Positions 31,741 through 33,534 of a stretch of DNA of 56,034 nucleotides are shown piece after piece. The stretch lies in NCBI GenBank assembly GCA_029907605.1, contig JARYLO010000006.1, positions 1 to 56,034 on the forward strand. Reading direction: 5' to 3'. The position numbers were made by a program, and so were the translations under genes. Numbering within the stretch: the stretch's first letter is position 1; the number at the start of each line of letters is the position of its first letter. Under the pieces are notes generated by a model. It searched no databases. It worked only from the letters and a program-made list of their open reading frames with translations, and was not told where the DNA came from. The stretch is from Sedimentisphaerales bacterium (GTDB lineage: Bacteria; Planctomycetota; Phycisphaerae; Sedimentisphaerales; Anaerobacaceae).

Positions 31741-33534
31741 CTACCTAATAGCTGGAACCTGCCACAGTTTCTGGAGTTGCTGTGTGGCTGTAACCGGATC
31801 CGGTAGTCCCTGATCCGGATATCGTCTTTGCATGGCTGCTGCCACCAGTCCTACAAACATGGGGTTTGGCCGCATAGGCCTGGAGGTCAGACATGGATGG
31901 GCCTGTGTGGCCATGAAGAATGGGTGGTCGGGGAGTTCCAGGATCTGCATGATCTGCTCGCCAGGTGCCTTGCCCGAGAAGACAAGGCCATTGTCTTCCA
32001 GGACCTGTATGTATCTAGGGTGGACCTCATACCTGTGCCTAAACCGCATCCTCACTGACGAGGCCCTGCCGAATAGCTCCCAAGCCATGGTATTGGCCTT
32101 TAGCTCTATATCCTTGCCACCCAGCCTCATAGTGCCGCCGAGCCGGTCTATCTGGCCTTGCTGAGGCAGCAGGTCTATCAGAGGGTCTTGACAGTTTGGG
32201 TCGATCTCTGTGCTGTTTGCCCCTGCAAGGCCACAGACATTGCGGGCGAACTCTACTACGGCCATCTGAAAACCAAAGCAGATCCCCAAACACGGGAGTC
32301 CCTGGGTGCGAGCGAATCTTAGTGCAGCGATCTTCCCTTCTGCCCCCCTTGTGCCGAACCCGCCAGGCACGATCAGCCCGTCTGCTGCCTGTAATCTCGA
32401 GGGGAGATTCTTGTCGGTTATGGTGGAGGTCTCGACCCATTCGATCTTGACGTTGCATCCGAGCCAGATGCCGGCATGCTCCAAGGCATGGATCAATGAG
32501 GCGTAGCTGTCCCTGACCGCAGTATACTTGCCACAGATGGCGATGGTAACAGTGTGGGTGGCTGCGCCGATGCGGTCTGTAAAGTCGCACCAACGGCCCC
32601 AGGCCCTACGCTCGTATCCAAGGTCGATCCTGTCTTCGATGTGCAATAGCCTGATCACCTCGAAGTCCAACCCTGCCTCCCTGAGCATGGCAGGTATCAT
32701 GTAAATGGAGGCCGAATCAGGCAGGCTTACCACCCGCTCCATGGGTACATTGCTATACATACTGATCTTCTGTCTTGCCTTCTCATCAACAGGGTGGGTT
32801 GCCCTGCAAGCGATGATGTCCGGCTGGACACCCAGCTCCATCAGTTGCCTGATGCCGAGCTGGGCGGCCTTGGACTTCTGTTCGCCCAAGGTAGGTGGCT
32901 CTATGATATAGGTTAGAGCCACAAAGCAGCTACTGCCTGGCCCCTCCTCATATGCCATCTGGCGGATCGCCTCTATAAAATAGGCATTCTCCAAGTCACC
33001 GACGGTCCCACCGATCTCAACAAAGACCACATCTGTGTTAGAGTCGAGTGCCAGTTGTCTGAGCCTAAGCTTTACCTCGCCGGTGACATGGGGGATCATC
33101 TGTACGTCCCTGCCCAGGTATTCCCCGTGCCGTTCCTTGTGTAACACGGAGCTGAATATCTGGCCGCTGGTGGCGAAATTCGCCTTGCTCAGGTCCTGGT
33201 CCAGCATCCGCTCGTACGTCCCAAGGTCCATGTCGCACTCCATACCATCATCAAGCACGAACACCTCGCCGTGGCGATATGGATTCAGCGTACCTGAATC
33301 GATGTTGAGGTAGCCTTCCAACTTGATTGGCGCAACCTTTAGCCCCTTGTCTTGCAGGAGCTTGGCCAGACATGATGAGAATATGCCCTTGCCCAGCCCG
33401 CTCATAACCGTGCCTACCACAAAGCAGTACTTGGTCTTGCCCTTTTGATAGCCCTGAGGTATAGGCGAAAAGAACTCACTGTCTAGACTCACTTGGCCGG
33501 TCCGCGCAAGCTCCTGTCTGGTTGTCCGTGGCAT
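31741..33534 (-). CDS. pyrG: CTP synthase with altered substrate-loop and glutaminase motifs
   Basis: Makes CTP from UTP, ATP and glutamine. The 597-residue protein has a 33-residue N-terminal extension before the synthetase domain, and the class I glutaminase domain begins near 330. Kept: MSGLGKGI P-loop, HGEVFVLDDG, ECDMDLGTYER (metal Asp), VEIGGTVGD, GGFGTRGAEGK and the nucleophile Cys in CLGICFGFQ. Changed: the usual K(L/I)DPY reads KLEGY. The C-terminal triad motif, normally HPE, reads HPC (Cys codon 31891-31893). The triad Glu is thus missing, although the Cys and His remain. GAGGA six bases before the ATG supports the start. Adjacent kdsB consumes the CTP. Confidence 0.95.
   Translation of the reverse strand: MPRTTRQELARTGQVSLDSEFFSPIPQGYQKGKTKYCFVVGTVMSGLGKGIFSSCLAKLLQDKGLKVAPIKLEGYLNIDSGTLNPYRHGEVFVLDDGMECDMDLGTYERMLDQDLSKANFATSGQIFSSVLHKERHGEYLGRDVQMIPHVTGEVKLRLRQLALDSNTDVVFVEIGGTVGDLENAYFIEAIRQMAYEEGPGSSCFVALTYIIEPPTLGEQKSKAAQLGIRQLMELGVQPDIIACRATHPVDEKARQKISMYSNVPMERVVSLPDSASIYMIPAMLREAGLDFEVIRLLHIEDRIDLGYERRAWGRWCDFTDRIGAATHTVTIAICGKYTAVRDSYASLIHALEHAGIWLGCNVKIEWVETSTITDKNLPSRLQAADGLIVPGGFGTRGAEGKIAALRFARTQGLPCLGICFGFQMAVVEFARNVCGLAGANSTEIDPNCQDPLIDLLPQQGQIDRLGGTMRLGGKDIELKANTMAWELFGRASSVRMRFRHRYEVHPRYIQVLEDNGLVFSGKAPGEQIMQILELPDHPFFMATQAHPCLTSRPMRPNPMFVGLVAAAMQRRYPDQGLPDPVTATQQLQKLWQVPAIR

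Follow-up and report, generated by a model that had tools for sequence, protein, structure and literature searches.

The glutaminase of Escherichia coli CTP synthase works with a Cys-Glu-His triad that includes His515 and Glu517 (reviewed in PMC9138612). According to work on GatD, E. coli carbamoyl phosphate synthetase and T. maritima IGP synthase do not require the triad Glu, S. aureus GatD has Gly in its place, and CobB/CobQ lack it (PMC5871853, PMC6085368). A survey of catalytic triads gives Asp, Glu or Asn as the typical third residue, and Gln or His as rare ones. The third residue can be missing where the nucleophile is Cys, and Cys itself is not among the third residues given (PMC9825947). 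That the Glu can be dispensed with in other glutaminases is known; in the open-access literature we found no report of a conserved, recurrent Cys in its place, of any Cys at the triad-Glu site, of a Cys-His-Cys glutaminase, or of an E517 variant.

The window, i.e., the whole 56,034 nucleotide stretch analyzed here, carries a single pyrG (31741-33534, minus strand) that encodes a CTP synthase of 597 residues. It is the sole copy in the genome (94.6% complete), and a second, normal CTP synthase was not found there. The protein exceeds the cut-offs of both NCBIfam CTP synthase equivalogs, NF003792 (651.7 bits, cut-off 308) and TIGR00337 (645.5 bits, cut-off 462.75), and contains a CTP_synth_N domain (PF06418, 330 bits) followed by a class I GATase domain (PF00117, 110.6 bits). 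An AlphaFold model, whose alignment input consisted of Phycisphaerae-type relatives only, has a pLDDT of 89.5 and finds solved CTP synthases as its best match. The Foldseek comparison with 1vco (E 3e-61, TM 0.82/0.91) indicates a CTP synthase fold. Judged by these sequence and model comparisons, the protein is an ordinary-fold CTP synthase (PyrG, EC 6.3.4.2) of a divergent Phycisphaerae type.

The ORF contains FMATQAHPCLTSRPMRP, with the motif AHPC where other CTP synthases have HPE, and the C-terminal end of the protein includes HPFFMATQAHPCLTSRPMRPNPMF. The HPC is encoded on the minus strand by CAT (31899-31897), CCA and TGT (31893-31891). Aligned to E. coli PyrG, Cys548 (31891-31893) falls on E517, His546 (31897-31899) on the catalytic H515, Ala545 (31900-31902) on F514, and Cys419 (32278-32280) on the glutaminase nucleophile C379. 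Glu443 (32206-32208; E. coli E403) and Arg501 (32032-32034; E. coli R470) are retained as well. Codons and alignment thus agree with the initial annotation, which had read a triad Glu replaced by Cys with the nucleophile and His still in place. The protein has the features of a class I triad glutaminase in its Cys within a GxCxG elbow (Cys419, in GICFG) and its catalytic His; the residue two past that His is Cys548 rather than Glu. In keeping Cys and His without the Glu it matches dyad-type class I glutaminases, a likeness in how the site would work that is drawn from a different family.

A sequencing error at 31891-31893, named in the initial annotation as a possible refutation, can be excluded, as TGC or TGT codes for Cys at this site in 116 species-level genomes of the order and also in other families of the class. 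Selenocysteine at position 548 was also considered and rejected; there is no TGA at the site, and the Cys codons are TGC and TGT. Nor has HPE been lost from glutaminases genome-wide. TrpG, CarA, GuaA and HisH of the same genome (named from motifs and lengths) keep it, and the change is therefore specific to PyrG. Elsewhere in this genome, a HisH-like glutaminase gene (GTQFHPEKSG; G000:C201:5411-5982, L115 and L116) is split over two frames, by either a frameshift or an assembly error.

Relatives were drawn from the nearest genomes, the class, the phylum and other phyla, with identical copies removed; phage and plasmid collections served only as a source of outgroup CTP synthases. Among 186 aligned proteins of the Phycisphaerae type, the triad site is Cys in 103, Glu in 82 and Ser in one. 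All 49 CTP synthases outside this type have Glu (other Planctomycetota, E. coli, Cetobacterium, Tsukamurella, Sinorhizobium, Parabacteroides, Monoglobus and others). A few near-duplicates between two genome collections may persist in the counts of 186 and 49. A pattern with an open codon at the site matched 139 of the 161 genomes of the window's order, after exclusion of one chance match. These species-level genomes comprise 116 with Cys (TGC/TGT), 22 with Glu (GAA/GAG), all of them in family f7, and one with Ser (TCC). Genomes with no CTP synthase match (e.g., G061) were treated as assembly gaps, since members of their family carry the gene. Across the class, the HPC pattern occurs in 111 of 397 genomes; about seven of these are chance matches outside pyrG, recognized from the matched sequence, which leaves about 104 with Cys. 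The Cys families are f1-f6, part of f7, f11, f12, f15, and two genomes of f16. The alignment with Phycisphaerae and other phyla that the initial annotation had proposed thus reveals a Cys that is clade-wide and recurrent.

Other variations were seen among these proteins. The Pro between His and Glu is replaced by Ala in four (HAE; L064, L070, L107 and L190) and by Cys in one (HCE; L091). Four f16 genomes (L211, L212, L213 and L214) encode a conventional CTP synthase only and none of the Phycisphaerae type. The conventional f16 proteins are 43-45% identical to the window protein, with the match beginning near residue 30, which suggests a gene displacement in these four genomes.

On the gene tree the site switches between Cys and Glu at least 7 to 9 times. 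Without the trait column, the full FastTree tree has nine changes (with Glu at the root, five Glu-to-Cys, three Cys-to-Glu and one Cys-to-Ser). An IQ-TREE tree with 74 rows has seven, and separate trees of the synthetase domain and of the GATase domain (the latter with residues 508-524 left out) give 7 to 8. A single Cys clade, holding all Cys rows and the nested f7 Glu rows, was rejected by the AU test (p-AU 0.0005), as was a topology without reversal in the order, in which the order's Cys rows group to the exclusion of the f7 Glu rows (p-AU 0.0009); both p-values are indicative, because the groups were named after a tree was seen. One early gain on the stem of the class followed by about eight losses takes nine steps on the 74-row tree, versus seven. 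This scenario is only a few steps costlier, so that the repeated switching, which stands in either case, may reflect several gains or one early gain with many losses.

Glu codons (GAR) and Cys codons (TGY) differ at all three positions. No intermediate codon or residue was seen among the order's genomes, in a class-wide scan for codons of the form HHN, which found the Ser genome alone, or in the alignment, where GAY, GCN and GGN codons are absent from the 186 Phycisphaerae-type proteins and the 49 others. Both states occur in related genera of one family (f7). One protein (L074) reads ATQAHPC in the region of E. coli positions 512-517 where its Glu neighbors read AAQFHPE, i.e., three changes within six residues, and window identities around the site reveal no clear longer tract. 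This triple change could be a short gene conversion or a coupled change. Cys548 is a genuine replacement of a catalytic residue in an essential enzyme, and it is both inherited and recurrent.

The remaining glutaminase residues examined are intact. The residues corresponding to C379, H515, G351, G352, Q383, E403, R466, R468 and R470 of E. coli are unchanged in all 103 Cys proteins, as are the tunnel residues P54, H57 and V60. On average, the GATase domain diverges 1.53 times as much as the synthetase domain in Cys proteins and 1.47 times as much in Glu proteins, and there is therefore no sign of relaxed constraint on the GATase domain. Two neighboring positions set the Cys proteins apart. Position 512 (E. 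coli numbering) is Thr in 103/103, and position 514 is Ala, Ser or Gly in 103/103, whereas Phe or Tyr is common there in Glu proteins. Thr512 together with a small residue at 514 looks like a permissive background for Cys.

We consider the protein most likely to be a working, glutamine-dependent CTP synthase in which the triad Glu has become Cys and the thiol acts as a third element beside a Cys-His dyad. Cys419 and His546 would still hydrolyze glutamine, acting as a dyad. Cys548, two residues past His546, would replace Glu as a polar neighbor and orient or polarize His546, directly or via water. A direct contact between Cys548 and His546 is doubtful given the shorter side chain of Cys. The glutaminase is predicted to be active, and we infer that the thiol of Cys548 serves His546. 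Selection for a thiol would maintain Cys548, since over deep time the site has gone back and forth between Glu and Cys and has hardly ever been occupied by other residues. It is possible, and we propose it tentatively, that a true Cys-His-Cys catalytic triad, its third member being a thiol or thiolate, has arisen in a class I glutaminase and has switched with Cys-His-Glu several times within the class.

If the triad Glu were simply dispensable, Cys548 could be a tolerated filler with no effect on His546. The glutaminases in which the Glu is inessential or absent (PMC5871853, PMC6085368) offer precedents for such a plain dyad, the single relative with Ser is consistent with it, and Thr512 with Ala514 or its small equivalents, which all Cys proteins share, hints at local repacking of the site. 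However, a site free of constraint would be expected to drift widely and show a greater variety of residues, and only Glu, Cys and one Ser are found in the 186 proteins and the 139 genomes of the order. The Glu to Cys change also costs three base changes and yet recurs. A filler of this kind is thus unlikely, though it deserves to be taken seriously.

The thiol beside the catalytic His could instead form a redox or metal switch, in which oxidation, a disulfide or a bound metal turns the glutaminase off. Cys proteins do contain more cysteines overall (12.7 vs. 8.5), and haem-copper oxidase genes (PF00115) are missing in many Cys lineages, including most genomes of the window's order. However, the Cys families f11 and f15 have COX1, and the Glu members of f7 lack it. 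A link between Cys548 and the absence of the oxidase is inconsistent with this pattern, and Cys therefore does not simply follow anaerobic life. Over six supported independent contrasts, no partner Cys arises together with Cys548, and we regard a switch as improbable.

Loss of the glutaminase with dependence on free ammonia, which the initial annotation had offered for the missing triad residue, is very improbable, because every Cys protein retains the glutaminase, oxyanion, glutamine-binding and tunnel residues examined, the GATase domain is not evolving faster, and glutaminases without the triad Glu do work (PMC5871853); the other half of that proposal, a different third triad residue, agrees with the data. 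That another acidic residue fills the triad position, as suggested for Asp32 near the triad site of pneumococcal GatD (PMC6085368), has as little to recommend it, for across the same six contrasts no column of the alignment consistently acquires an acid together with Cys (the best scores about 2/6), and a Glu at another position, the remaining refutation foreseen, did not materialize.

Several further departures are traits of the Phycisphaerae type as a whole. KLEGY (residues 71-75, 33310-33324, minus strand; KLDPY, 40-44, in E. coli) and the N-terminal extension (residues 1-33, 33436-33534, minus strand) had both been pointed out from the sequence, and both are real. The K-x-E-G-Y motif is found in 185/185 Phycisphaerae-type proteins, Cys or Glu alike, so that a link between Cys548 and KLEGY is refuted. 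The extension of about 33 residues, with near-invariant E20, P24, P26, G28, Y29 and G32, is likewise common to the class whether the protein has Cys or Glu. All aligned members of the type have Glu for D42, Gly for P43, Leu for M52, Ala for K306 and Phe for H467; E310 is replaced, and T438, a GTP-activation residue, is mostly Asn. Since K306, E310 and H467 are replaced here and are largely invariant outside the class, the Phycisphaerae-type CTP synthase may differ in regulation, separately from Cys548.

In this essential enzyme nature has swapped Glu and Cys on several occasions, even among the related genera of f7, and such Glu/Cys pairs of relatives make a direct comparison of the role of the third residue possible. 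Among known systems, GatD of MurT/GatD and CobB/CobQ are alike in that Cys and His are kept and the Glu two residues past His is missing. These are believed to function either as a dyad or with the help of another acid; they belong to a different family than PyrG, and S. aureus GatD, with its Gly, has no conserved Cys. The CTP synthase C-terminal region-related (seleno)protein (NF004836/PRK06186) has a GATase-like domain homologous to that of the window protein but is without the synthetase domain, and the window protein scores 138 bits against its cut-off of 260. The closest comparison is with PyrG of E. coli, T. thermophilus (1vco) and S. solfataricus (3nva), which share the two-domain architecture and fold and are alike in their nucleophile, His, oxyanion, glutamine-site and tunnel residues. 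The window protein differs from these in having Cys for E517, KLEGY for KLDPY, Ala for K306, replacements of E310 and H467, and the N-terminal extension. Apart from the Cys, these differences are common to its Glu relatives too.
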